Shown piece after piece: positions 471 through 61,975 of a stretch of 64,000 bases of DNA. The DNA is from an uncultured Bacteroidales bacterium (GTDB taxonomy: Bacteria; Bacteroidota; Bacteroidia; Bacteroidales; P3), in the NCBI GenBank assembly GCA_905234695.1, contig CAJOHZ010000014.1:1-64000 (forward strand), given 5' to 3'. A model generated the notes under the pieces. That model ran no database searches. It had not been told where the DNA came from and saw only the letters and a program-made list of their open reading frames with translations. Within the stretch, counting starts at the first letter, position 1, and each line of letters opens with the position of its first letter. The translations under genes and the position numbers were made by a program.

Positions 471-1046
471 ATGAACATAGCAGTCTTCTGCGGGGCGTCG
501 CTCCCGCACAGCGAACAAATCACAGAGGCCGCGCGGCAGCTCGGCCGCGCCATCGCCCGCGGCGGCCACACGCTGCTCTACGGCGGCAGCAATCTGGGGC
601 TGATGGGCGCCACCAGCGGCGCGGCCCTGCAGGAGGGCGGCCGCGTGGTGGGCGTCATCCCCACCTTCTTCAGCGACGACATCATCCACTCGCAGCCCGT
701 CAGCGAGCTCGTCCGCGTCCGCACCCTCGCCGAGCGCAAGGAATACCTCATCGCCCACAGCGACGCCTTCGTGGCCCTCCCCGGCGGCATCGGCACCCTC
801 GACGAGGTGCTCGAGGTCATGGTCGCCAACCAGCTGGGGCTGGTGCGCGACCGAAGTGGAGCGAACCAGTCCCAGGGCAAGCCGATGATACTCCTCAACC
901 TCGGCGGCTACTACAACCCCTTCCTCGCCCAGCTCGACGCCATGCGCGCCGAAGGCCTGCTCCGCAGCGCCGCGGGGTTAATCTCGGTAAATTCTGTAGA
1001 AGATATTTTCAAACTCCTTGCCGCTGGCGCGGCAGAAATCTCGTAA
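471..1046 (+). CDS. LOG family protein (TIGR00730; possible nucleoside 5'-monophosphate phosphoribohydrolase)
   Basis: 191 residues, the usual size of the Lonely Guy/YvdD Rossmann-fold family, which removes the base from cytokinin riboside or purine 5'-monophosphates. Visible signatures are NIAVFCGAS at the N-terminus, YGGSNLGLMG (37-46), the Arg-Lys pair at 89-90 in the AERKEYL segment, and the active-site motif PGGIGTLDE (104-112). Start at 471 is chosen because the hydrophobic first beta strand begins there; an in-frame ATG at 426 would overlap the preceding gene and add unlike residues. A small insertion (RDRSGANQSQG, about 124-134) interrupts the usual loop. Family assignment is firm; the substrate is not shown by the sequence. 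Confidence 0.9.
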   Translation: MNIAVFCGASLPHSEQITEAARQLGRAIARGGHTLLYGGSNLGLMGATSGAALQEGGRVVGVIPTFFSDDIIHSQPVSELVRVRTLAERKEYLIAHSDAFVALPGGIGTLDEVLEVMVANQLGLVRDRSGANQSQGKPMILLNLGGYYNPFLAQLDAMRAEGLLRSAAGLISVNSVEDIFKLLAAGAAEIS

Positions 1047-1128
1047 ATCTTGTAAATTATTTTGCTGACGCAACAACACGACAATCACCGCCGCAGGCGG
1101 AATAAATTTACAAGATTTACAAGATTTC
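1035..1128. repeat. 24-bp inverted repeat flanking a 46-bp loop
   Basis: The arm 1035-1058 (starting GAAATCTCGTAAATC) is the reverse complement of 1105-1128 with one difference that would be a G-U pair in RNA. The left arm overlaps the stop codon of the LOG-family gene. The loop holds a GC-rich palindrome (about 1089-1100, CGCCGCAGGCG). It may act as a transcript-end hairpin between two genes, although there is no clear T-run after it. Confidence 0.65.
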
Positions 1129-17120: not shown

Positions 17121-17337
17121 TTTTTATGTCGGGTCTGCAAGGTGGCAGTCCCGGTGTAGTCCCAATGGTCCTTCGGTGATCTTTCGGTGTTCCTTCGGTA
17201 TTTCTCCAACTGTTTCCCAACTGTTCTCCAACTGTTCTCCAATGTAAGATAGGGAAAACAGTAGGTTAACAATTGAATATCAGTTGGATAAATACCGAAA
17301 GAATACCGAAGGCACATAAAACGTACTCCGTCACCAC
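17121..17337. repeat. 11-bp-module hairpin element, copy A
   Basis: Part of a 714-bp gene-free stretch (16882-17595) that otherwise holds the hsp20 and rpmG promoters. Modules of 11 bp: three TTCGGT modules (CGGT at 17174, 17185, 17196), then core modules CCAACTGTTTC 17206-17216, CCAACTGTTCT 17217-17227 and 17228-17238, and on the other arm ACCGAAAGAAT 17294-17304, ACCGAAGGCAC 17305-17315, ATAAAACGTAC 17316-17326, ending TCCGTCAC. The TTCGGT and ACCGAA modules are reverse complements, so the whole can fold as an imperfect hairpin. Outer modules are shared with copies B-D. Confidence 0.75.
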
Positions 17338-21743: not shown

Positions 21744-24700
21744 TTGAAAAAACGTCTGTTCATAGTACTCTTGTCGTTACTGACACTTTCCATTTCGGCG
21801 AAAAGTATCCGTCCGGCATACGCTACGACAGGTCGTGATTTCTGGGTGGCTTCCCTCAGACATCTCGACGGGACAGGCTCATTCATAGGGTCTGTTTCGC
21901 AGGAGATGACGCTAGCCCCGAGCCTCCATACTTTTGACAACAGCATGGGGCAGGGCTCTGCTACATTCTGTGACTTCGGCAACATGGAGTGCTATGCCTA
22001 TCCCACTGGCATGTTGCTTACCCCACCGGGCAACGGATGGACCGTCAATGGCACACCTCATAGTCTCACTGGCGATATTATTACCATCTGTCACAATGAT
22101 ATGCTGCATTTCGTTGTCATCCCTGCCACCAGTGATCATGCGGTGCGTTGGTTTGTAGACAACGTTGAACAGACAGAGACGTCTTTGAATTTCAATTTCA
22201 GATTTCCGTCAATTGTTGGTATCCACACTGTGATGGCAGTCATGCATGGGGACTGTTCTCCCAATTGGTGCGATACAATGCTTTTGGTGGTACAAGTGAA
22301 CGCCAGTTCTAGTACCGATGTGCATGCCGTATGTGAGAGCTATACCTGGATTGACGGAAACACCTACACCTCGTCTAACACCACAGCCACCCACACGCTC
22401 ACCAATGCCATCGGCTGCGACAGTGTCGTCACACTCAACCTCACAGTCAATAATAATGACAGCAACCTTGTCCTATGGGAGTTTCCCGAGAACTTCCCGG
22501 TGACGGTGAATGGCATTTCATATACCATACCTGGACGCTACCAGCAACATCTCACAAATGTCGCAGGTTGCGACAGCACGCTCAATATCCAAGTTATCCA
22601 ATATCCCGACAACGTGGACAGTGTTATCTGTACAGTCGGAGTGATAGAAAATCCATGGGATGCGCAAGTTTTAGGGTCAGTGGCAAATGTCCATAACTAC
22701 TATACTCCTTTGGTGGGTGATATTGATGGTGACGGTGTTGTCGAGATTGTGGCGGGTATTTATCCGGGTTCCAATACCGAGCCAATTTCACAAATAGGTA
22801 TTTTCCGTGGAACGGACCTGACTCGTATAGGTACCATCAATGTCTCTCAGAAGATTACATGTGACAAAATTGGACCGATGGCGATTGTCCGCTATCCCAA
22901 TGGCAGTGGTGGACTGCAAGGGGCAGTCATATTGCACTGCAATGACAGTAAACTCCGCTCCTATGATATTCATGGCAACTTGTTGCACACTTCGAATAAC
23001 AATACCCCCTGCAAGGGAGCTGTGTCCATTGCCGACTTCAATAACGATGGGTGGCCCGAGGTGTATGTGGGTAATGCCATCTATGATGCAGCTACCCTTC
23101 GGAGGCTCTGCGTTGGTCCTTCAGGAGGGAACAAGGGATTGCGTAATGTATGGAGTTCATCGGATATGTCCGCATTGCCTTTCGCAGCCAATGTGTTGAA
23201 TGATGAAAAACTGGAGCTTATCTGTGGAAATACCATCTATGGTGTCAACATTGTCAGCCGGACAAATGCTGCGTTGAACAGTATCAGTGTTCTCAAAACT
23301 ATTACTCTTCCTTCTCGTATATCTAGCGATGGTGGTGTTGCAGTGGTGGACTTTGATGGAGACGGGAGTCTGGAAGTCTTTGTGGTTCAAAACCGTGCTC
23401 ACGGTGAAAACACATACGACACGGCTTACTTTTATGCATACAATCCCGTAACAGAGAATATTCTTTTCATTCATGGCAGGTATTGTCTGAATGCTGGATT
23501 CCCACTTATTGGTGATATCGACGGTGACGGCCATTTGGAGTTTGTTTATACTGACAGGCAGACCAACGTGGCTAATGCCAGGATCACGGCGATAAAATAT
23601 ACTCCGGAAAACGGTGCGCAAGTGATGTTCCAAGCCACTCATACCGACCGTTCCGGAATGACCTCTATGACCCTCTTTGATTTCAACCAAGATGGTATCA
23701 TGGAGATTGTGTATCGCGATGAGACTGCTCTCCGCATTATCAACGCCAGCGGTAAAAGCCATCTCACGGGGAATGACACACTACCTTTCTACAACCTCTA
23801 TTCTTTGAATATGGCGGCCGGCACATGGATGGAAAATCCCGTTGTGGCCGAAGTGAATAATGACGGTGCTGCCGAGATTGTAGTATGTGGCATGTTGGGT
23901 ACAGGCCCTGGGGGTGCCGGCAGCAACTATCAATATCAAGGCCATCTTGTCATCCTTGGGGGCATACACCCTTGGGCGCCGACACGTAAGGTATGGAATC
24001 AGTACATGTACAATGTCACCAACATCAACGAGGACCTCACCACTCCGAGATATATCTTTGATAACGCCACATTCTTTACCGACTTCGATGGAGCCCAGTA
24101 CCAGCCCTATAACAATTTCCTCCAGCAAGCCACAACCCTTACGGACCGGGGACGACCTTATACGGCAGCGTCCGATGTATTCTCCACTCAAGCGTCGATA
24201 CAATCAAGTAATGATGTGTTCACCATTACACTAGACCTCAGTAACCAAGGCGACAATGCCCTCACGGCACCATATCAAATCACGGTGTACAAGAATACCT
24301 ACCGAGGACAGGTACTCTATACCCAAACAATCAGTCAATCTTTACCACAATCGGGCAGTCAGACTGTTACAATCACTCTGCCCCACAATACGATATGTTC
24401 CCTCGTTGATGTAGATAGCCTTGTTATCGCCCTTAACGATGCAGGAGCCGGTATCGCCCAGCACGGAAACCAGTCACCCGAATGTGATACTACGAACAAC
24501 ATTGTGACGCTGGCATGTCCACATAATTCGAATGGTACTGACATTCAGGCTGCATGTGAGAGTTTTGTGTGGATTGACGGCAATACCTATACGACATCCA
24601 ATACCACGGCTACCCATGCTCTCAACACAGTGTCCGGTTGTGACAGTATTGTCACACTCAATCTCACCATCAATCACAGCACAACAGGAGACACGACGGC

Positions 24701-27700
24701 GGAGGCGTGCGATAGCTTCACATGGTACGGGGAGACGTACACAGCGACCACCGAGACCCCGACACACGTGGGTACGAACGTGGCGGGGTGCGACAGCACG
24801 ACAACGCTGCATTTGACAGTCCACTACAGCACCGCAGGCGATACCTCGGCGGTGGCGTGCGACAACTTCACATGGTATGGGACCGACTACACGTCATCGA
24901 CGAATGCCCCCACGCATCATACCACCAATTCCGTGGGATGCGACAGTACCACCACGCTTCATCTGACTGTCAATTACAGCTCCGCAGGGGATACCTCCGC
25001 TACGGCCTGTGATAGCTATACCTGGTATGGGAATTCTTACACCGTCACTACCGCCACTCCCACACATACCCTGACGGGAGCCAATGTGGTGGGTTGTGAC
25101 AGTACCACCACGCTGCACCTTACCATCAACTATAGTAGCACGGGAGACACCACGGTGGTGGCATGCGACAACTTCACGTGGTATGGGACCGACTACACGT
25201 CATCGACGAATGTACCCACACATCACAGCACCAATTCTGTGGGCTGCGACAGTACCACTACGTTGCATCTCACTGTTAATTACAGCACATCGGGTGACAC
25301 CATGTCGGTGGCTTGCGACAATTTTACATGGTACGGGGAGACATACACGGCTTCGACAAATACGCCCACCCATCATAGCACCAATTCTGTAGGCTGTGAC
25401 AGCACCACCACGTTGCATCTCACTGTTCACTATAGCACTGCAGGGGATACCACGGCGGTGGCGTGCGACAACTTCACATGGTACGGGACCGACTACACGT
25501 CATCGACGAATGCCCCCACACATCACAGCACCAATTCTGTGGGATGCGACAGTACCACCACGTTGCATCTCACTGTTCACTACAGCACCGCAGGGGATAC
25601 CACGGCGGTGGCGTGCGACAACTTCACATGGTACGGGACCAACTACACGTCATCGACGAATGCCCCCACCCACCATAGCACCAATTCCGTGGGGTGCGAC
25701 AGCACCACTACGCTTCATCTGACTGTAAATCACAGCACCGTAGGAGATACAACAGCGGGGGCTTGTGACAGCTACACGTGGTACGGGGTGACGTATACGA
25801 CCTCGACCAATAGCCCAACACATGTAAGCACGAATGTGGCAGGGTGCGACAGCACGACGACGTTGCACCTGACAATCCGCTACAGCACCGCAGGAGACAC
25901 CACGGCGGTGGCATGCGACAACTTCACATGGTATGGGAACAACTACACGTCATCGACAAGTACCCCGACGCACGTCAGCGCCAACGTTGTAGGCTGTGAT
26001 AGCACCACCACTTTACATCTCACTGTTAATTACAGCACGTCGGCTGACACCACGTCGGTGGCTTGCGACAATTTCATGTGGTACGGGGAGACATACACGG
26101 CTTCGACAAATACGCCTACCCATCATAGCACCAATTCTATTGGATGCGACAGTACCACCACGTTGCATCTCACTGTTCACTACAGCACTGCAGGGGATAC
26201 CACGGCGGTGGCGTGCGACAACTTCACATGGTATGGGACCGACTACACGTCATCGACGAATGTTCCCACACACCATAGCACCAATTCCGTGGGATGCGAT
26301 AGTACCACCACGTTGCATCTTGTCATATCATACAGTAATGCAGGGGACACGACAGCCAACGCGTGCGACAGCTTCACGTGGTACGGGGTCACGTACATGG
26401 TTTCTACCAACAGCCCGACACATGTGAGCACGAATGTGGCGGGGTGCGACAGCACGACGACGTTGCATCTGACAATCCGCTATAGCACTGCAGGAGATAC
26501 CACGGCGGTGGTGTGCGACAGTTACACATGGTATGGCAATACCTACCCGGCTTCGACGAATACCCCAGTACATCACAGCACCAATTCCGTCGGGTGTGAT
26601 AGTGTCATTACGCTGCATCTTACAGTAAACTACAGCACCGCAGGGGATACCTTGGCAGAGGCGTGCGATAGTTACACGTGGTACGGGGAGACGTACACGG
26701 CTTCGACGAATACGCCTACCCATCATAGCACTAATTCCGTTGGATGCGACAGCACCACCACGTTGCATCTCACCGTTCACTACAGTACCGCAGGGGATAC
26801 TTTGGCAGAGGCGTGCGACAGTTTCATGTGGTACGGGGAGACATACACGGCTTCGACGAATGTACCCACACATCATAGCACCAATTCTGTAGGCTGTGAC
26901 AGCACCACCACGTTACATCTTGTCATATCATACAGTAATGCAGGAGACACGATGGCCAACGAGTGTGACAGCTTCATGTGGTACGGGGTGACGTATACGG
27001 CCTCGACTAATAGCCCGACACACGTAAGCACGAACGTGGCAGGGTGCGATAGCACGACGACGCTGCACTTGACGGTGAGATATTCGACGGTGTCGGAATA
27101 CTACGACACGTGTGTGGAGAACGCCCTTCCGCGGATCTTCAACGGACACAGCTACACGACGGAAGTGACGGGGACGGAGGTGACGGTGCCGAACGCGGAG
27201 GGGTGCGATAGCGCGATTGCCTATCATCTGCACATACACTGGAACACGAGCGCGACGCTGGACAGCACGGTGTGTGCGGACCGTTTGCCGCTGACGTGGA
27301 ACCACCGGGCCTTCGTGACGGGCGGAGAGCAGAGGGACACCTTGGTGAACGTGGCAGGTGCGGACAGCCTTGTGCTGATGAGGGTGAATGTGAACGCGAC
27401 ATACGCCGACACGGTGACGGCGAGCATCTGCGACAACGGGAGCTATTCCTTCGAGGGTAGCGAGTACACGACGGCGGGGAGCCACAGTCGCCTGCTCCAG
27501 ACCGGTGCGGGCTGCGACTCGCTGCGGACGCTTATGCAGGAAGTGCGGCAGACGACGACAGGGGACACAACAGCGGTGGCATGCGACAGCTTCACGTGGT
27601 ACGGAACCTCGCATATGTCCTCGACCAACAGCCCGACACATGTAAACACGAATGCGGCAGGATGCGACAGCACGACGACGCTGCACTTGACAATCCACTA

Positions 27701-29765
27701 TAGCACTGCAGGGGATACTTCGGCAGTGGCTTGCGACAGTTACACATGGTACGGGAATACCTACACGCTTTCGACGAATACGCCGGTACATCATAGCACC
27801 AATTCCGTTGGGTGCGATAGTTCCATTACGTTGTACCTCACGATTAACCACAGCACCACACGGGATACATTGGTGGAGGCATGCGACAGTTACACATGGT
27901 ATGGGACTACCTACACGGCTTCGACGAATACACCCACCCATCACAGTGTCAATTCTGTCGGGTGCGATAGCACGACGACGCTACACCTGACAATCCACTA
28001 CAGCACTGCAGGAGATACCTCGGCGGTGGCTTGCGACAGTTACACATGGTATGGCAATACCTACACGCTTTCGACGAATATGCCTACCCATCATAGCGCC
28101 AATTTTGTGGGATGTGACAGCACGACGACGCTCCACCTGACAATCCACTACAGCACCGCAGGAGATACCTCCGCGGTGGCTTGCGACAGCTTCACGTGGT
28201 ACGGGGAGACATTCACGGCCTCGACCAACAGCCCGACACATGTGAGTATGAACGCGGCGGGCTGCGACAGCACGACGACGCTGCACCTGACGGTGAGATA
28301 TTCGACAGGGTTGGAATACTACGACACATGCGTGGAGAACGCCCTTCCGCGGATTTTCAATGGTCATTCGTATCCGACAGACACAAGCGATTCCCGTGTC
28401 TTCGTCACCAATTCCGTTGGTTGTGACAGCGTCATTACCTACAACCTGTATGTCCACCGTAACTATCTTATCACCCTTGACAGCAGTCTTTGCAACGACA
28501 GCTTGCCAATTACATGGAATGGTGTCCTTTTCGACACACTTGTCCACCAGTCAGCCACGCTAGTCCGTTCGGTGACCCATACCGCTGTCACGGGTGCGGA
28601 CAGTGTGGTGCAGATGGCCCTTCATGTTCATCCGCTTTACAACAACCATCTCTCTGCAGAAATCTGTAAGCACCAGAAGTTCTCCTTTGGTGGCCATGAT
28701 TACAATGTCCAGGGTGATTATACCGATACCCTTCGCTCTGTTCATGGTTGCGACTCACTCTCCACGCTCCATCTGGAGGTCCGTGACACTTATGAGCAAT
28801 ATTATTTCGATACCATCTGCCATGGCGACACCTATGAATGGCGCGGCCATACAATTCACGGTACAAACAGCCTCCTTACCGAAGACTTCCTCATTCGTGA
28901 TACATTGACCACTGGCTATGGTTGTGATTCGGTAGATGTTCTCTCGCTCACCAAGATGGCGCAACCGCAGATATCTCTACAAGCAGATACCGATTGCATG
29001 ATTCCCGGGTATCATCTTTCCGTAAGAGCCACAGCTCCCTTGTCGGCTGGAGAAGAACCGGGACAGATTCCATACCTATATTGGTCCTCCGCCCCTGTTG
29101 ACGATATCCTTGTGGGGCAGGAGAATTCAGATGCGATAGTTGTCTCTCCCCAAAAGACGACAGAGTATATGCTTTATGCCGATTACCACGAGGCTCCGCT
29201 TTGTCCTGCGACGGCCTCCATTGTCCTCAATCCCGTGGTTGTGCCAGAAGCCATTCTCAGGGTCACTCCATCAATGCTTCTGCTCGAAAACATGCATGTA
29301 GTGGCGCAGGATAAGTCCAAGAAGGTATATCCTAGACGCTCTTGGTATGTGGACGGTGTCAAGCAGGTCACTCGTTCCAATCCTTTTGAGTATGATGTGG
29401 ATGCAAAGGCCGATAGTGTATCAATCTGGTTGGAAGTCTATAACGGGCAGTGTCGTGACACGGCAAAGCAGACCCTCTATGTCTATAGGGTGAATGTCTG
29501 GGCTCCCAATGTCTTTACCCCCTCGTTAGAGAGCAACAATATGTTCTACCTCTCCACACAGGGAGTTCTTGAAGGAGAATTGTTCATATATGACAGAATT
29601 GGCGACCTTGTGTTCCATACTACCGACATGACTCAGGGCTGGGACGGCACCCATAATGGTACGCCTTGTATCCAGCGTGCCTATGTGTGGACATTCCGTT
29701 ATCGCTCCATTGACCAACCCAATGCCTATCAGAATAAGACAGGAACTGTTCTTCTGCTGAGGTAG
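21744..29765 (+). CDS. giant repetitive cell-surface protein, T9SS type B sorting domain
   Basis: 2673 residues, starting at a TTG codon (no ATG is suitably placed) with signal peptide KKRLFIVLLSLLTLSISA. Order: N-terminal region like IgGFc-binding proteins (TTGRDFWVAS, 28-37); one repeat at about 190-243; six FG-GAP-like beta-propeller blades at about 320-720 (GDIDGDGVVEIV, DFDGDGSLEVF, DFNQDGIMEIV); a CARDB-like domain at about 820-930; then 22 repeats of about 50 residues at 931-2189, interrupted at 1784-1938 by three divergent repeats; further divergent repeats; and a gliding-motility/CHU_C type B sorting domain at about 2580-2673 (APNVFTPSLESNNMF, GWDGTHNG). Each repeat has two cysteines (ACDSxTWYG and GCDSTTTLHL). 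Probably a surface adhesin or gliding-type protein. Confidence 0.9.
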   Translation: MKKRLFIVLLSLLTLSISAKSIRPAYATTGRDFWVASLRHLDGTGSFIGSVSQEMTLAPSLHTFDNSMGQGSATFCDFGNMECYAYPTGMLLTPPGNGWTVNGTPHSLTGDIITICHNDMLHFVVIPATSDHAVRWFVDNVEQTETSLNFNFRFPSIVGIHTVMAVMHGDCSPNWCDTMLLVVQVNASSSTDVHAVCESYTWIDGNTYTSSNTTATHTLTNAIGCDSVVTLNLTVNNNDSNLVLWEFPENFPVTVNGISYTIPGRYQQHLTNVAGCDSTLNIQVIQYPDNVDSVICTVGVIENPWDAQVLGSVANVHNYYTPLVGDIDGDGVVEIVAGIYPGSNTEPISQIGIFRGTDLTRIGTINVSQKITCDKIGPMAIVRYPNGSGGLQGAVILHCNDSKLRSYDIHGNLLHTSNNNTPCKGAVSIADFNNDGWPEVYVGNAIYDAATLRRLCVGPSGGNKGLRNVWSSSDMSALPFAANVLNDEKLELICGNTIYGVNIVSRTNAALNSISVLKTITLPSRISSDGGVAVVDFDGDGSLEVFVVQNRAHGENTYDTAYFYAYNPVTENILFIHGRYCLNAGFPLIGDIDGDGHLEFVYTDRQTNVANARITAIKYTPENGAQVMFQATHTDRSGMTSMTLFDFNQDGIMEIVYRDETALRIINASGKSHLTGNDTLPFYNLYSLNMAAGTWMENPVVAEVNNDGAAEIVVCGMLGTGPGGAGSNYQYQGHLVILGGIHPWAPTRKVWNQYMYNVTNINEDLTTPRYIFDNATFFTDFDGAQYQPYNNFLQQATTLTDRGRPYTAASDVFSTQASIQSSNDVFTITLDLSNQGDNALTAPYQITVYKNTYRGQVLYTQTISQSLPQSGSQTVTITLPHNTICSLVDVDSLVIALNDAGAGIAQHGNQSPECDTTNNIVTLACPHNSNGTDIQAACESFVWIDGNTYTTSNTTATHALNTVSGCDSIVTLNLTINHSTTGDTTAEACDSFTWYGETYTATTETPTHVGTNVAGCDSTTTLHLTVHYSTAGDTSAVACDNFTWYGTDYTSSTNAPTHHTTNSVGCDSTTTLHLTVNYSSAGDTSATACDSYTWYGNSYTVTTATPTHTLTGANVVGCDSTTTLHLTINYSSTGDTTVVACDNFTWYGTDYTSSTNVPTHHSTNSVGCDSTTTLHLTVNYSTSGDTMSVACDNFTWYGETYTASTNTPTHHSTNSVGCDSTTTLHLTVHYSTAGDTTAVACDNFTWYGTDYTSSTNAPTHHSTNSVGCDSTTTLHLTVHYSTAGDTTAVACDNFTWYGTNYTSSTNAPTHHSTNSVGCDSTTTLHLTVNHSTVGDTTAGACDSYTWYGVTYTTSTNSPTHVSTNVAGCDSTTTLHLTIRYSTAGDTTAVACDNFTWYGNNYTSSTSTPTHVSANVVGCDSTTTLHLTVNYSTSADTTSVACDNFMWYGETYTASTNTPTHHSTNSIGCDSTTTLHLTVHYSTAGDTTAVACDNFTWYGTDYTSSTNVPTHHSTNSVGCDSTTTLHLVISYSNAGDTTANACDSFTWYGVTYMVSTNSPTHVSTNVAGCDSTTTLHLTIRYSTAGDTTAVVCDSYTWYGNTYPASTNTPVHHSTNSVGCDSVITLHLTVNYSTAGDTLAEACDSYTWYGETYTASTNTPTHHSTNSVGCDSTTTLHLTVHYSTAGDTLAEACDSFMWYGETYTASTNVPTHHSTNSVGCDSTTTLHLVISYSNAGDTMANECDSFMWYGVTYTASTNSPTHVSTNVAGCDSTTTLHLTVRYSTVSEYYDTCVENALPRIFNGHSYTTEVTGTEVTVPNAEGCDSAIAYHLHIHWNTSATLDSTVCADRLPLTWNHRAFVTGGEQRDTLVNVAGADSLVLMRVNVNATYADTVTASICDNGSYSFEGSEYTTAGSHSRLLQTGAGCDSLRTLMQEVRQTTTGDTTAVACDSFTWYGTSHMSSTNSPTHVNTNAAGCDSTTTLHLTIHYSTAGDTSAVACDSYTWYGNTYTLSTNTPVHHSTNSVGCDSSITLYLTINHSTTRDTLVEACDSYTWYGTTYTASTNTPTHHSVNSVGCDSTTTLHLTIHYSTAGDTSAVACDSYTWYGNTYTLSTNMPTHHSANFVGCDSTTTLHLTIHYSTAGDTSAVACDSFTWYGETFTASTNSPTHVSMNAAGCDSTTTLHLTVRYSTGLEYYDTCVENALPRIFNGHSYPTDTSDSRVFVTNSVGCDSVITYNLYVHRNYLITLDSSLCNDSLPITWNGVLFDTLVHQSATLVRSVTHTAVTGADSVVQMALHVHPLYNNHLSAEICKHQKFSFGGHDYNVQGDYTDTLRSVHGCDSLSTLHLEVRDTYEQYYFDTICHGDTYEWRGHTIHGTNSLLTEDFLIRDTLTTGYGCDSVDVLSLTKMAQPQISLQADTDCMIPGYHLSVRATAPLSAGEEPGQIPYLYWSSAPVDDILVGQENSDAIVVSPQKTTEYMLYADYHEAPLCPATASIVLNPVVVPEAILRVTPSMLLLENMHVVAQDKSKKVYPRRSWYVDGVKQVTRSNPFEYDVDAKADSVSIWLEVYNGQCRDTAKQTLYVYRVNVWAPNVFTPSLESNNMFYLSTQGVLEGELFIYDRIGDLVFHTTDMTQGWDGTHNGTPCIQRAYVWTFRYRSIDQPNAYQNKTGTVLLLR
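24534..28310 (+). repeat. 150-bp coding tandem repeats within the giant surface-protein gene
   Basis: Units of exactly 150 bp begin at 24687, 24837 and 24987; after one 156-bp unit the register resumes at 25143, 25293, 25443 and every 150 bp to 26943 (ending 27092), then again at 27561, 27711, 27861, 28011, 28161 (ending 28310). The first unit (24534-24686) is 153 bp. Two sequence dialects are seen. Units with HHSTNSVG mostly use ACCACCACG codons for the TTT triplet; units with HVSTNVAG use ACGACGACG. The second type occurs at units 9, 13 and 17, giving a 600-bp higher-order period. Confidence 0.92.
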
Positions 29766-40482: not shown

Positions 40483-40515
40483 ACACCGAGAGTACACATT
40501 GTGTGCTCTCGGTGT
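40483..40515 (+). terminator. terminator hairpin
   Basis: ACACCGAGAGTACAC (40483-40497) pairs with GTGTGCTCTCGGTGT (40501-40515) with one G-U pair and a 3-nt loop, followed by GGCTTTTATG. It ends the gene at 40429 and forms the left boundary of element B. Confidence 0.75.
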
Positions 40516-40707
40516 GGCTTTTATGCGCCTTTTTCCTTCCTTTTACTCTTATCTTACGCATACCCAGCACTTCTCCCACACTTCTCCCCTACATACGTTG
40601 GAGAAGTGTAGGAGAAGTGTAGGAGAAACGTTGGAGAAGAACCGAAGGCACACCGAAACCGCATAAGGACCACACCGAAGGCGCTCCCTTGTCACCCGGT
40701 GGCCGGA
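40505..40707. repeat. 11-bp-module hairpin element, copy B
   Basis: Left arm of eight 11-bp modules from 40505 to 40592 (for example TTATCTTACGC 40549-40559, TTCTCCCACAC 40571-40581), a 7-nt linker, then right-arm modules GGAGAAGTGTA 40600-40610 and 40611-40621, GGAGAAACGTT 40622-40632, GGAGAAGAACC 40633-40643, GAAGGCACACC, GAAACCGCATA, AGGACCACACC, GAAGGCGCTCC, CTTGTCACCCG (to 40698). Left and right arms are imperfect reverse complements, giving a hairpin about 90 bp long. It occupies most of the 377-bp gap 40430-40806. Confidence 0.85.
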
Positions 40708-40752
40708 AATGGGGCAAAATGTTAAAAATTTGCAGGATTGAAAAATTCTTTG

Positions 40753-40760
40753 TACTTTTG
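40753..40760 (+). promoter_or_regulatory. TAnnTTTG promoter box
   Basis: TACTTTTG with TTTG at 40729-40732, 20 bp upstream; 46 bp before the start at 40807. It lies just beyond element B. Confidence 0.75.
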
Positions 40761-40806
40761 CAAATCGAAAAATAACACAACCATTAACCCTCAAAAAACA
40801 ATAACT

Positions 40807-41848
40807 ATGAAAAAGACAATACTTTCTTTGATGCTGGTGCTGGCATTCCTGCCAGTGATGGCACAAAACCATATCGACACGATATTCACTTATTTTGACC
40901 ATTACCAAGGGCGACGGGATCCAACCTTCTATTATTACGGCGGTTTCGATGATTGGTTTAGAATAAGTCGGTCTGCTTATGGCAATACAGAGGGCAAGAA
41001 ACTTCAGGCTTTGACTGAAATAAAGTATTATGGCAAACCAATTTATGCCACATATAGATACATTGACACCTCTCTGCGGATTATCGGAGTCGCAGCGGCA
41101 TTGGATATCAGTATGGAAAGTAGATATCATTATTCGGATACTACCTTGGCAGGGCGTGAGCCAGAGTATTTGCAGTTATACAAACCCACAACAGACTCTA
41201 TGATATTGTTGGCACAAGGCTGCTGTACCAATAGGCAACCCCGTTATAGGTTACAGATTTTCACCACAGATCCTTATACAACGTTGTATTATCCATACAT
41301 ATATGAAGCCTATTTTGACAGTGCTATCATTGTGACGGATTCTTTCTATGTGGCGGCCACTGAGTTTAATAACTATAAAGACACGACAAATTATGATAAT
41401 TTTGCACATCCACAAACGGGTATATGGCAAATTTCTTATGAGGACGCAGGTGGGCCTTATGTATCTTCTCATTTCATCAGTAGAAGAACCGCAATGAGTG
41501 GGAGTGACACCACATGGTCTAGTGGATACCGCGGAGAAGTAACAATGCCTCACCGAGGCTCAGGCCTGCTTATCTTCCCGATATTCGACACGACGGGAAT
41601 CGTGCTGGACATCACGCAGCCTACCCGCTTGGCGGAGGAGCATACCAGCCTGTATCCCAACCCCGCCACCACGGAGGCGTCGCTCTTCTCGGCGTTCCGC
41701 ATCCACACGGTGGAGGTATATAACGCACAAGGGCAGCTGGTGGAGCAAGTACGCCCGCCTCAACCTCGCAGCCTATCCCAAGGGAATGTACGTGGTGGTG
41801 GTGACCACTGCCGCCGGCCGCACCACAAAGAAACTGCTGGTGGAATAG
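40807..41848 (+). pseudogene. exported T9SS type A cargo protein, frameshifted in the sorting domain
   Basis: Signal peptide MKKTILSLMLVLAFLPVMAQ begins at 40807; the body is unrecognised, rich in Tyr, Thr and Asp. A T9SS type A sorting domain starts near 41652 (LYPNPATTEASLF) and reads VEVYNAQGQLVEQ; then the frame continues with unlike residues to a stop at 41872-41874. In the +1 frame the expected end is present: RLNLAAYPKGMYVVVV, then GRTTKKLLVE and a TAG at 41846-41848. One extra base near 41744-41749 (in GAGCAAGTAC) explains it. Either the cargo has lost its signal or the base call is wrong. Otherwise the gene looks intact. Confidence 0.75.
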
Positions 41849-41904
41849 GACTGATCCCGATCCGAGGTGACTAGGGAGTGTCTTCGGTGTTCCTTTTATG
41901 CGCC

Positions 41905-41980
41905 TTGGCTCCACAAGGTCGCCGACCTTAGTTCAACAATCAACAGTTGGCTCCACAAGGTCGCCGACCTTAGTTCAACA
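41905..41980. repeat. 34-bp direct repeat pair containing AAGGTCGCCGACCTT palindrome
   Basis: The 34 bp at 41905-41938 and 41947-41980 are identical, 42 bp apart. Each contains the near-perfect palindrome AAGGTCGCCGACCTT. A related CACAAGGTGGCCGACC lies at 42211-42225, at the right end of element C. The pair is in the 372-bp gene-free stretch 41875-42246. Confidence 0.85.
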
Positions 41981-42022
41981 GGGTTTAGTTTTTACCTTTT
42001 GGTTTTAATCTTCTCCCACCCT

Positions 42023-42225
42023 GCTCTCGGTGCGCCTTTTATGTGGTTTTTATGTGCCTTCGGTATGCATTTTACCCTTATCTTACGCATATCCAGCACT
42101 TTTTCCGCACTTCTCCCGACATGAGTCGGAGAAGTGTCGGAGAAACGTCGGAGAAGGACAAAAGGCACATAAACGTCGCATAAGGACCGCACCGAAGTCA
42201 CTCCTTTGTCACAAGGTGGCCGACC
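42023..42225. repeat. 11-bp-module hairpin element, copy C
   Basis: Left-arm modules in strict 11-bp register: GCCTTTTATGT 42034-42044, GGTTTTTATGT 42045-42055, GCCTTCGGTAT 42056-42066, GCATTTTACCC, TTATCTTACGC 42078-42088, ATATCCAGCAC, TTTTTCCGCAC, TTCTCCCGACA (to 42121). After a 6-nt linker the right arm runs GGAGAAGTGTC 42128-42138, GGAGAAACGTC 42139-42149, GGAGAAGGACA, AAAGGCACATA, AACGTCGCATA, AGGACCGCACC, GAAGTCACTCC, TTTGTCACAAG (to 42215). It aligns module by module with copy B. It lies between two converging transcription units. Confidence 0.85.
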
Positions 42226-42246: not shown

Positions 42247-45200
42247 TTACTCGGTGAGGCGGGTGAGTTGGGTGATGGCGCTGTGAATGGATTTGACGTT
42301 GGCAACCGAGAGGGTGAGCCGTTCGGTGCTTTCTTTGAGCCGTACCGTGTCGGGGTGCTCCTGTGCGTAGCGGATGAGGCGCATGAAGTTCGCGGAGCGG
42401 TAAAAGGGGTTGTCCGGATTGGCGGAGAAGTGGCACACCATCTTGTCCTGTTTCAGCACCAGTTTCTCTATGCCGAACTCCTTGGCCATGCGCCGTAGGG
42501 TGATGGTCTTGATAAGTTCCTGTGTGGGCGTTGGAATCGGGCCGAAGCGGTCGGTGAGCCGCTCGCGGTAATGGGCCAGTTCCTCCTCGCTGCTGAGGTC
42601 GTTAAGTTCCCGGTAGAGTAGCAGGCGCTCGCTGACGCTGGTGACGTAGTCGTCGGGCAGCAGCACTTCCAGGTCGGTCTCGATGACGCATTCGCGGACA
42701 TACTCCTGCGACTCCTCGGCTTCCTGACGGAACAGTTCTTTGAACTCGGTTTCTTTCAGTTCCTCGATGGCCTCGTTGAGGATTTTGTGGTACATGTCGT
42801 AGCCGATGTCGCTGATGAAGCCACTCTGCTCGGCCCCCAGGATGTTGCCCGCCCCGCGGATGTCGAGGTCGCGCATGGCGATATTGAGTCCGCTGCCGAT
42901 GCCGCTGAACTCCTCGATGGCGCGCAGTCGCTTCTGTGCCTCGTCGGTGAGCACGCTGTATGAGGGGATGAGCATGTAGCAGAAGGCTTTCTTGTTGCTG
43001 CGCCCCACACGGCCGCGCATCTGGTGCAGGTCGCTCAAGCCGAAGTTCTGTGCGTTGTTGATGATCATCGTGTTGGCATTGGGTATATCGAGGCCGTTCT
43101 CGACGATGGCGGTGGACACCAGCACGTCGATGTCGCCGCAAAGGAACTGCATCATGGTCTCTTCTACCTGTTTGCCGTCCATCTGCCCGTGGGCGATGCC
43201 TATGCGGGCATCGGGCACCAGCCGTCCCACGAGACCCGCCATTTCGGGCAGGTTCTCCACGAGGTTGCTTACAAAGAAGGTCTGTCCGCCGCGGGACATC
43301 TCGTAGCGGATGGCGTCGCGGATGACCTCTTCGTCGAAGCTGCACAGTTCAGTCTGGATGGGCTGCCGGTTGGGGGGTGCGGTGCGTATCACGCTCAGGT
43401 CGCGGGCGCCCATCAACGAGAACTGCAGGGTGCGAGGGATGGGGGTGGCGGTGAGGGTCAGGCAGTCCACGTTGACTTTCATCTGGCGTAATTTCTCCTT
43501 GACGCTCACACCGAATTTTTGTTCCTCGTCGATGATAAGCAGGCCGAGGTCTTTGAATTTGAGGTTTTTGTTGGTGATGGCGTGGGTGCCTATCAGGATG
43601 TCTATCTTGCCGGCTTCCACATCCTTGTATATCTGGTTTTTGTCGCGCAGGGAGCGGAACCGGTTGAGGTAGTCGATATTGACGGGCAGCCCCTGTAACC
43701 GTTCCTTGAAGGTGTTGTAGTGTTGGAAGGCGAGAATGGTGTTGGGCACCAGCACGGCCACCTGCTTGGAGTCGCACACCGCCTTGAAGGCGGCACGGAT
43801 GGCCACTTCGGTCTTTCCGAAGCCTACGTCGCCGCACACCAGGCGGTCCATCGGGGCTGAGGACTCCATGTCGTGTTTCACCTCCTGTGTGGCCTTCAGC
43901 TGGTCGGGGGTGTCTTCGTAGAAGAACGACGCTTCCAGTTGCTCTTGGAGGTAACTGTCGGCGCTGAAGGCAAAGCCTTGGGAGGCTTTGCGCTTGGCGT
44001 AGAGGGCGATAAGGTCTTTCGCGATGTCCTTGACCTGTTTCTTGGTGCGTTGTTTCAACACCTGCCAGGTATTGCTTCCCAACCGGTTGAGGGAGGGGGT
44101 GGTGCCCTCCTTGCCCACGTAACGGCTGATTTTGTGCAGTCCGTGGATGCTGATATACAGCGTGTCGTTGTTCTTGTACAGCAGCCGGATGACCTCTTGT
44201 GTGCGCCCGTTGGTGGTGATTTTCTCCAGTCCGCTGAAACGCCCCACGCCGTAGTCGATATGGGTTACGTAGTCGCCGGGTTTCAGTTCGAAGAGTTCCT
44301 TGAGCGTCATGGCCTGATGGCTGTCGCGCAGGTCCCGGACGGTGTATTTGTGGTAACGTTCAAAGATTTCGTGGTCGGTGAAGCAGACAATCTTCTCGCT
44401 GTTGTCCACAAAGCCGTGGTTCAGGGAGCACTGAAGAAATATCGCGGTCGGGGCGGTACCGTTCTCTTCGTCGGCGGCAAACACCTTCTCCAGTCGCCGT
44501 TGCTGCTGTTCGTTGGTAACGGTGACGATGACGCGGTAGCCCTGCTCGTCATACTGCCGCAGGGTGCTCATCAGCAGGTCGAATTGCTTGTTGAACGCCG
44601 GTTGGGGCGACGACTGGGTCTCGATGATGTCGGCCTTGGTAAAGTAGCTGCTGTTGCCCGTTTCGACAATGCGGCAGCGCAGCAGTTCTTTCAGGAACTG
44701 GTTGGCGGAGCAGTAAAGGCTCTCGTCGTGGCCGGTCTTGGCAAAGAGGCTTTCGATGGTCTCGCTGATGAACATCAGCCCTTGGACCCATACGGTGTCG
44801 TCGCTGCCGAAATAGTGCAGCAGCGGCACCTTCTCCTCCACGGTCACCGTGTCTTGCGAGTGGCGGGCCATGTTGGGAAGAATGTTGACGGTGTCGTATT
44901 GTTTCACCGAAAGCTGTGTCACGGGGTCGAAGGTGCGTAGCGAGTCTATCTCGTCGTCGAAGAACTCGATGCGGAAGGGGTGCTCGTTGGCGTAGGAGAA
45001 GACATCGATGATGCCGCCGCGTACGGCGTACTGGCCGGGTTCCACCACGAAGTCCACCCGCTCGAACTCGTATTCCTGCAGGGTGTCGATGATGAAGTCC
45101 ATCGAGAGGTGTGCACCCTTGCAGACCACGAGGGTGTTGCGGGTCAGCGTGCGCGACGAGACCACCTTCTCGTACAGCGCTTCGGGGTAGGTGACCACCA

Positions 45201-45606
45201 TGAGCCGTCGACCGGCGTTGAGTTGTTTTACCACCTCGCTGCGTTGTAGGATATTGGCGTTATCGGTCTCGAACAGGTCTGTGCCGCTACCGACATCGTC
45301 GCTCTTTTCGGCCCGACGGGGTTTGCGGTAGGTGGTGGGGAAGAGTAGCACTTGCTTCTGGTCCATGTCCAGCTCGCTCTCTTCCAACAGGGTTTCAAGG
45401 TCGTTGAGGAGATAAAAGGCCTCCTCTTTGTTTCCGGCGATGAGCATCTGCCCCATGTCGGGCCGTTGGATGGCGAGGGAGGCCGCCGCGATGGCGGGAA
45501 GCGAGCCGGTCATCCCGTTGATGTGGATGCGCGTTGTTCCCTTTGCAATATGCTCCGTAAGCGATCTAACAATCTCGGAGTCTTTGTATAAGTCGGTTAG
45601 CAGCAT
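42247..45606 (-). CDS. mfd: transcription-repair coupling factor Mfd
   Basis: 1119 residues. Mfd removes RNA polymerase stalled at DNA damage and recruits the excision-repair machinery. Order: UvrB-like N-terminal region (to about 450); CarD-like RNA-polymerase interaction domain with KPGDYVTHIDYGVGRFSGLE; helicase motif I GDVGFGKTEVAIRA; DEEQ box in LLIIDEEQKFGV; motif III LTATPIPRTL; motif VI QMRGRVGRSNKKAF; and the TRCF C-terminal domain. The promoter box is 17 bp upstream. It diverges from porX over 91 bp. Confidence 0.97.
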   Translation of the reverse strand: MLLTDLYKDSEIVRSLTEHIAKGTTRIHINGMTGSLPAIAAASLAIQRPDMGQMLIAGNKEEAFYLLNDLETLLEESELDMDQKQVLLFPTTYRKPRRAEKSDDVGSGTDLFETDNANILQRSEVVKQLNAGRRLMVVTYPEALYEKVVSSRTLTRNTLVVCKGAHLSMDFIIDTLQEYEFERVDFVVEPGQYAVRGGIIDVFSYANEHPFRIEFFDDEIDSLRTFDPVTQLSVKQYDTVNILPNMARHSQDTVTVEEKVPLLHYFGSDDTVWVQGLMFISETIESLFAKTGHDESLYCSANQFLKELLRCRIVETGNSSYFTKADIIETQSSPQPAFNKQFDLLMSTLRQYDEQGYRVIVTVTNEQQQRRLEKVFAADEENGTAPTAIFLQCSLNHGFVDNSEKIVCFTDHEIFERYHKYTVRDLRDSHQAMTLKELFELKPGDYVTHIDYGVGRFSGLEKITTNGRTQEVIRLLYKNNDTLYISIHGLHKISRYVGKEGTTPSLNRLGSNTWQVLKQRTKKQVKDIAKDLIALYAKRKASQGFAFSADSYLQEQLEASFFYEDTPDQLKATQEVKHDMESSAPMDRLVCGDVGFGKTEVAIRAAFKAVCDSKQVAVLVPNTILAFQHYNTFKERLQGLPVNIDYLNRFRSLRDKNQIYKDVEAGKIDILIGTHAITNKNLKFKDLGLLIIDEEQKFGVSVKEKLRQMKVNVDCLTLTATPIPRTLQFSLMGARDLSVIRTAPPNRQPIQTELCSFDEEVIRDAIRYEMSRGGQTFFVSNLVENLPEMAGLVGRLVPDARIGIAHGQMDGKQVEETMMQFLCGDIDVLVSTAIVENGLDIPNANTMIINNAQNFGLSDLHQMRGRVGRSNKKAFCYMLIPSYSVLTDEAQKRLRAIEEFSGIGSGLNIAMRDLDIRGAGNILGAEQSGFISDIGYDMYHKILNEAIEELKETEFKELFRQEAEESQEYVRECVIETDLEVLLPDDYVTSVSERLLLYRELNDLSSEEELAHYRERLTDRFGPIPTPTQELIKTITLRRMAKEFGIEKLVLKQDKMVCHFSANPDNPFYRSANFMRLIRYAQEHPDTVRLKESTERLTLSVANVKSIHSAITQLTRLTE

Positions 45607-61751: not shown

Positions 61752-61975
61752 CTTTGCGTGGTTTCGGTGTGCCTTTTGTGTGGTCTCGGAGTGCCCTCGG
61801 AGATGCTGGCAAATTCCACCCGAATTCTTCCCATATTCCTCCCATCCTCGATGGGAAGATCATGGGAAGATCATGGGAGGATCATGGGAAGATCATGGGA
61901 AGAACACAAAATTCACACCGAAGTCAAACTGGGACCACCCCGAAGGCGCACAGGGAGCACTCCATTGTCACACAA
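61752..61975. repeat. 11-bp-module hairpin element, copy D
   Basis: Left side has TTCGGTGTGCC and CGAATTCTTCC / CATATTCCTCC-type modules (to 61850). Right arm: GGGAAGATCAT 61853-61863 and 61864-61874, GGGAGGATCAT 61875-61885, GGGAAGATCAT 61886-61896, GGGAAGAACAC 61897-61907, AAAATTCACAC, CGAAGTCAAAC, TGGGACCACCC, CGAAGGCGCAC, AGGGAGCACTC, CATTGTCACAC (to 61973), all in 11-bp register. The outer right modules match those of copies B and C. It fills most of the 386-bp gap 61648-62033. Confidence 0.85.

Follow-up and report, generated by a model that had tools for sequence, protein, structure and literature searches.

The window, by which we mean the whole analysed stretch of 64,000 nucleotides from an uncultured Bacteroidales bacterium, carries four intergenic elements of about 200 bp each (copies A to D; Table 1). 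All four were found where the first-pass annotation had placed them and were built of 11-bp modules as it had described. The orientation of copies B and C was taken as canonical: the 5′ arm is pyrimidine-rich and contains TTATCTTACGCATA, and the 3′ arm is purine-rich, with several tandem modules (e.g. GGAGAAGTGTT) and the right end CACTCCCTTGTCACC. In 3′ arms of the copy C type the number of GGAGAA-type modules varies among copies in whole 11-bp units; the 3′ arm of copy D consists of tandem ATGGGAAGATC-type modules. Copies B and C were aligned module by module, as had been claimed, with one 3′-arm core module fewer in C. Outer modules had been regarded as common to the elements; B and C show them clearly, D in part and A weakly. 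A mirror copy of the end repeat to the left of copy C is possibly the far left end of that copy, parted from its body by other inserted repeats.

Table 1. Positions of the elements, their parts and associated features (window coordinates unless a locus prefix is given)
Feature	Position	Strand	Remarks
Copy A	17121-17337	-	A subfamily, orientation opposite to B and C; hairpin 17183-17310
Copy B	40505-40707	+	B/C subfamily; hairpin 40509-40678; right end 40682-40696
Copy C	42023-42225	+	B/C subfamily, canonical orientation; hairpin 42029-42204
Left neighbour of copy C	40738-41874	+	378-aa ORF
Right neighbour of copy C	42247-45606	-	mfd, 3′ end towards copy C
Copy C 5′ arm, pyrimidine-rich	42029-42115	+	gapless scan; contains TTATCTTACGCATA motif
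Copy C 3′ arm, purine-rich	42118-42204	+	gapless scan; tandem GGAGAA-type modules
Copy C right-end repeat CACTCCTTTGTCACA	42199-42213	+	two mismatches to CACTCCCTTGTCACC
Mirror copy of end repeat	41866-41880	-	reads GGTGACTAGGGAGTG on the + strand
Copy D	61752-61975	+	D subfamily; hairpin 61758-61960; right end 61958-61972
Promoter-like region, about 80 bp	40703-40790; C18:35667; C42:146; C1:2446; C20:35324; C17:734
7-bp-unit palindromic arrays, examples	L121:9771-9857; L122:575-654; L207:11277-11369

The 11-bp period was measured as lag-11 identity, which was 0.529, 0.531, 0.531 and 0.568 in copies A to D, against a mean of 0.25 (sd 0.03) in dinucleotide shuffles; none of 1000 shuffles reached the observed value for any element, and among lags 5 to 23 only lag 22 approached lag 11. 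The four elements are the window's four strongest 11-bp-periodic places (excess of 29-40 matches; next best 12), and three block-shuffled windows gave a maximum excess of 20, 11 and 12. A hairpin scan blind to period recovered all of A to D, with 11 as the best arm period in each. Folding of copy C gave z scores of −7.7 (RNA, + strand), −5.2 (RNA, − strand) and −6.8 (DNA), and 0 of 200 shuffles folded equally well in each of the three cases. The observation made in the first-pass annotation was confirmed.

The window's genome (G000; 2.47 Mb in 70 contigs, 97% complete) was searched at the DNA level with copies B, D and A as queries, which returned 54, 16 and 51 matches. After a manual count, from which self-matches of the reverse arm and three hits of 22-25 bp were excluded, these came down to about 70 non-overlapping places (41 + 13 + 16 for the B, D and A queries), a count that is incomplete, since further divergent members lie at L293 (a short hit) and in C20, and that may include halves of one copy, since nine of the 70 places are within 50 bp of a contig end. 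Copies A to D belong to one dispersed superfamily; the annotated family of four is real, but it is far larger than four and copy A stands in the opposite orientation.

Within the G000 loci 57 distinct hairpin copies were delimited, of which 49 were scored for gene context, the other eight having no called gene on one side. Tandem genes flank 27 copies (18 sense, 9 antisense), divergent genes 13 and convergent genes 9. No called ORF is overlapped by 45 of the 49 copies and four do overlap one (ORFs largely within an element were not counted), so the family is, as had been supposed, mostly intergenic as well as dispersed, with the many copies looked for in MITEs. Unique flanks predominate: 37 of 57 left flanks and 36 of 53 right flanks have no similarity to the flank of another copy, and 20 of 57 and 17 of 53, respectively, do. 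That the elements arose as an assembly artefact or as chance low complexity has a negligible probability. Places at contig ends are usual for repeats, but the other places lie inside contigs, most flanks are unique, orthologous copies occur at two loci in two further genomes (G009 and G022), and shuffles never reach the signal.

The only recurrent neighbours seen are three paralogous genes of 341-382 aa, which lie beside five delimited copies. Those with reading frames of 382 aa (window 40505-42225) and 348 aa (C18:35487-37328) are each flanked by two 11-bp elements, and the third (341 aa) adjoins another copy; the gene between two elements may have been duplicated together with them. In the window's paralogue a secretion-tail match was weak and did not reach the Pfam cut-off. 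A promoter-like region of about 80 bp (GGCAAAATGTTAAAAATTTGCAGGATTG...TTTGTACTTTTGCAAATC) is common to several loci, most of them adjoining an 11-bp element, and a similar region in C17 occurs without any such element. Between 40400 and 42400 three sigma-70-like promoters were predicted (2.3 in shuffles), together with four terminator-like sites (1.9 in shuffles), three of which overlap the left edge of copy B.

The outer modules CACTCC-TTGTCAC recur: the right end CACTCCCTTGTCACC was located at 34 places in G000 with at most two mismatches, against two for the control; at least six of these places are in element-free sequence. A mirrored left end was seen in few copies (C54, C23 and perhaps copy C), and both ends are intact in few. 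When the G000 copies and three G012 copies were inspected by eye, no target-site duplication was seen, nor was a formal empty site of the element found. Among the listed CACTCCCTTGTCACC places there was no inward-facing pair at the distance expected of a parent transposon. No transposase recurs near the delimited copies; the genome-wide transposase search covered Y1 only, and Y1_Tnp (PF01797) had no match in G000 and matches in 5 of 14 control genomes. Two pattern scans of IMG/VR for carriage by phages gave one hit and none; the hit, inside a 163-aa ORF that is followed by a 439-aa ORF, had no detectable hairpin and reads as chance. The suggested non-autonomous element is supported as to its dispersed spread; no parent transposase, target-site duplication or ligand was found.

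Movement of a REP/REPIN-type element by a RAYT or IS200/IS605-like Y1 transposase is very improbable, and the REP/RAYT reading was rejected on the absence of PF01797 matches in G000. The likeness is in dispersed intergenic hairpins, paired compensatory changes in the arms, many copies and genome-specific sequence, all of which are described for REPINs in the available text of PMC3116915. According to the same text, however, a REPIN consists of two short REPs and depends on a RAYT, whereas here the stem is a periodic array and the unit architecture differs. The Y1 result holds for a genome of which about 3% is missing, but five other genomes (G009, G016, G017, G026 and G029) likewise have no Y1_Tnp match and yet carry 11-bp hairpins.

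Alignment A1 comprised 31 of the 57 delimited copies; 12 of the other 26 belong to the D family, and the last 14 comprise truncated, interrupted, expanded and divergent copies and some initially read in reverse orientation. In the 5′ arm (columns 1-80) the 31 copies have accumulated 224 parsimony substitutions with no indel except a 1-nt gap column near the loop. The 3′ arm has seven distinct gap positions, six of 11 or 22 nt and one of 9 nt; counted by rows, which are not events, 55 of 56 gaps are whole-module. Among the 14 non-D copies outside A1, three carry about 27 bp of another repeat inserted into the 5′ arm, two lack 15 and 17 nt of that arm, and a further one has diverged too far for a judgement. 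The rule of whole-module length change is not absolute, since such odd-length 5′-arm indels exist. Core modules differ by 0.21 within copies and by 0.30 between copies. The annotated pattern of modules alike within a copy and different between copies is accordingly true but moderate in size, and together with the whole-module gaps it supports homogenisation within copies.

The two arms of a copy are coupled. Own 5′ and 3′ arms pair at −70.6 kcal/mol and swapped arms at −62.3 kcal/mol, a difference matched by none of 5000 permutations; for the inner, middle and outer parts taken separately, 0, 0 and 11 of 5000 permutations did so. Loop-proximal columns contain two-sided changes (e.g. C-G 21 / G-C 10). 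Either compensatory selection or quasi-palindrome template switching would yield coupling of this kind. Consensus folding of the aligned family recovered only 10 pairs, all loop-proximal, because whole-module indels shift the outer register, and the arm-swap test was used instead. The properties observed for the family in this genome are its many copies, a unit of exactly 11 bp, a hairpin with coupled arms, and a 3′ arm that gains and loses whole modules.

These properties bear on the main rival to the reading preferred below, namely that the elements are neutral relics in which an 11-mer was duplicated in tandem within palindromes and then altered by slippage and quasi-palindrome correction, without a binding factor or any selection on the period. 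We regard this as somewhat unlikely. Whole-unit gain and loss and homogenisation are products of slippage, odd-length indels occur in some copies, units of 7, 8 and 9 bp also form arrays, and the window's genome is without SbcCD (see below); it leaves unexplained that the 5′ arms of the 31 aligned copies took on 224 substitutions and not one indel.

A-form RNA has a pitch close to 11 bp, and it had been argued from this that a transcript would place the same letters on one face of a long stem at each turn. A stem kept as the RNA of one strand should tolerate more G.U than A.C mismatches on that strand. Such tolerance was not found in the 31 copies of the B, C and A type, which have 187 G.U and 183 A.C mismatches (p 0.88), or in the D family (50 and 60 in 12 copies; p 0.39), and the mismatch counts per hairpin in 54 hairpins of the genus showed no strand heterogeneity (p 0.68). 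Across families, conserved module positions did not gather on one contiguous face, 198 of 500 permutations being as good (11 of the 54 hairpins were left out as too short). Arrays of 11-bp units were equally common outside and inside detected hairpins (56 vs 50), and when the whole window was searched with Rfam models at gathering thresholds tRNA alone matched. Neither the pitch argument nor the one-face claim of the first-pass annotation is supported by these results. The equal G.U and A.C counts lead us to prefer a DNA-level reading over one-strand RNA; the symmetry gives no sign of selection as one-strand RNA and is compatible with transcription or with a function of both strands.

It is improbable that transcripts of the elements act as a long dsRNA scaffold or RNase III substrate by folding into an A-form stem with the same letters at each turn. 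The predicted RNA fold is very stable and better on the canonical strand (z −7.7 vs −5.2), the unit is near the A-form pitch and the arms are coupled, but there is no excess of G.U over A.C in the stems, copies occur in all gene contexts (with both sense and antisense copies between tandem genes), 11-bp arrays are as common outside detected hairpins, and the only Rfam match in the window is tRNA. In bacteria a period of about 11 bp is usually taken to reflect the pitch of negatively supercoiled DNA (available text of PMC4132750).

The genus comprises uncultured rumen and gut Bacteroidales. A search with copy B gave no match in any of 60 relatives, 36 of them from the same genus. Architecture was followed in a sample of 2.81 Mb from 34 genus genomes and 43 named rumen or hindgut Bacteroidales loci, some of which belong to those genomes, with exact duplicates removed; hairpins were detected by a scan blind to period (arms of at least 22 bp). 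The scan found 183 hairpins, 113 of them periodic, with periods of 7 (30 hairpins), 8 (15), 9 (4), 10 (1), 11 (54), 12 (1) and others (8). The palindromic arrays of 7 and 8 bp make 11 the commonest hairpin unit and not the sole one. Outgroups from other families and phyla (0.92 Mb) gave 46 hairpins, seven of them periodic, with a single period-11 hairpin in AT-rich Peptostreptococcus sequence.

The 54 11-bp hairpins fall into 25 sequence clusters and come from 15 of the 34 sampled genus genomes and three named loci; the other 19 genomes gave no 11-bp hairpin in samples of 4-100 kb. The pyrimidine-rich arm comes first in 24 of the 25 clusters (p 1.5e-6) but never in the 32 hairpins with a period of 7 or 14. 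Unit length and arm polarity are constant, therefore, in unrelated sequences across one genus: the sequence of the elements is species-bound and their architecture is not. The neutral account does not say why 11 should be the unit of unrelated families from 15 genomes when periods 10 and 12 have one hairpin each, or why 24 of the 25 clusters should share one polarity.

Tandem arrays outside detected hairpins were counted in the genus at periods 10 (6), 11 (56), 12 (12) and 7 (142), so that 11 stands out from the periods next to it, and the outgroups had no period-11 array outside hairpins. As period-7 arrays are commoner, 11 is a second, separate class. Among these arrays are some that resemble imperfect hairpins overlooked by the scan. 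What the elements have in common is the 11-bp unit, and neither the sequence nor always the hairpin; a constant unit whose letters differ by species points to a shared machine or constraint that fixes unit length. Relatedness of the elements can be recognised from their letters over short distances. In G017, a close relative (Mfd 80% identical), TTCTCCCATAT modules cluster with one G000 element, copy D by its core, and in G009 and G022 orthologous elements are kept 5′ of mfd and 5′ of the start of a gene that we take, from the beginning of its reading frame, to be PriA-like (95% and 86% identical, no gaps).

The palindrome nuclease SbcCD was scored in 37 genus genomes (G000-G036). SbcD was above the cut-off in 14, and SbcC-like hits with E of 5e-30 or better occurred in exactly those 14, none passing the curated SbcC cut-off. 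SbcD was below the cut-off or absent in G000 and in 22 of the 36 others, so that SbcC-like and SbcD proteins are missing or weak together in 23 of 37 genomes, several of which are only 71-88% complete. G000 itself has no SbcD match and a weak SbcC-like match (E 2.4e-4), and it stands beside a clade that keeps both proteins. Stems scoring at least 30 numbered 18 in 1199 kb from 21 genomes without SbcD and one in 789 kb from 13 genomes with it (permutation p 0.011); for 11-bp hairpins the figures were 42 and 9 (35 vs 11 per Mb; p 0.024). On the Mfd tree, from which G015 was excluded in its final form for a long branch, the link was not significant (four independent pairs, median p 0.63), and the presence of 11-bp hairpins did not track the loss of SbcCD. 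Loss of SbcCD as the sole cause was rejected because of this lack of correspondence on the tree; it is at most permissive for the elements.

The reading that we favour, tentatively and with a confidence that falls short of even, is that the elements are species-specific, dispersed and mostly intergenic palindromic minisatellites, MITE-like and non-autonomous, which act at the DNA level as helically phased units. Transposition or ectopic copying would disperse a unit with GGTGACAAGGGAGTG-type end repeats, and a putative DNA-binding or DNA-processing factor would contact underwound chromosomal DNA once per turn. As proposed here, this contact at every turn would preserve the 11-bp unit, since slippage by whole turns would be the main kind to survive. 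Within the extruded hairpin, slippage together with template switching may homogenise one arm and re-match the other, and loss of SbcCD in the lineage might let long, near-perfect stems persist. Since the one-face test was negative, helical phasing is a step that we infer.

A wider proposal, which we think rather unlikely, is that period and polarity define the element class: a factor belonging to one genus would write or guard 11-bp, outward-purine-rich arrays, head to head or single, which copy themselves around the genome while their letters drift between species. If true, such elements would resemble iteron arrays, but in many copies spread over the chromosome, and their phase would be that of the underwound DNA helix. 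The centromere parC of plasmid R1 is an array of 11-bp iterons bound by ParR on one face of duplex DNA. It shares with the present elements the array of 11-bp units; unlike them, it is a plasmid locus, neither dispersed nor palindromic. Bacterial repeat families are normally recognised by sequence, whereas here an 11-bp unit and a purine/pyrimidine polarity persist despite sequence turnover. If selection is responsible, the arrays would offer a natural assay of how, in living cells, one turn of DNA is read by a protein or enzyme; if the cause is mutational, they would expose a slippage or template-switch process with a built-in one-turn step. A link with SbcCD loss, should it hold, would make the genomes of the genus a natural experiment on palindrome tolerance.

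The nearest described system, judging from the available text of PMC4596501, is the BrickBuilt MITE of Porphyromonas gingivalis, a minisatellite with short terminal inverted repeats and long predicted stem-loops in about 20 intergenic copies, which nucleotide searches confine to P. gingivalis and P. gulae. Both are intergenic Bacteroidales minisatellites in MITE-like elements whose lengths change by whole units. BrickBuilt, however, has 23-nt units in one direct array with IS5-like ends (of the GAGACCTTYGCA type in Table 2 of that paper), whereas the present elements have 11-bp units in two facing arms, different ends that were matched to no IS, and more copies, and unrelated families across a genus share their unit length. 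Stem-loop-containing sequence families (PMC2267715) and GTAG/CGTC-tagged REPs (PMC3733652) are likewise described, in the available parts of those papers, as families of intergenic stem-loop repeats; in that of PMC2267715 the words tandem, periodic, Bacteroides and Porphyromonas are absent and no 11-bp unit is apparent. The periodicity of about 11 bp in bacterial DNA (PMC4132750) has the same period, shown strongly by two transposons, but in the accessible text its signal is phased A/T in mostly coding DNA, whereas here literal 11-bp repeats lie in intergenic palindromes. Among the open-licence papers searched, no 11-bp-module hairpins and no constant unit with changing sequence across a genus were found; there is an open chance that a period-defined element class is new in itself.

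Several other repeats were observed. A small palindromic repeat (GGCTCCACAAGGTCGCCGACCTTAGTT; window 41913-41984, also L019, L068 and L070) has entered copies of the 11-bp element, perhaps duplicating TT, and resembles very small mobile repeats. The 7-bp-unit palindromic arrays have a purine-rich 5′ arm and often contain GCTGACGC or GCTGTCGC at the centre. A hairpin in the window (1035-1128) with an arm period of about 9 bp and a centre with GCTGACGC is apparently a relative of the 7/8-bp class. Palindromic arrays of 8-bp units (ACGGTTAT type) occur at several places in a Prevotella sequence (L211), so unit-built hairpins are not confined to the genus. In G028, whose 100-kb sample had no 11-bp hairpin, hairpins of 9-bp units (GAGTAATCT) were found at L255:17230-17331 and L259:16690-16760. 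The window also holds 150-bp tandem repeats (14 + 4 copies; 24785-28291) within a 2673-aa ORF (21744-29765) and, at its very start (4-99), a 41-bp tandem repeat that contains an inverted repeat (CGCATATATGCG).
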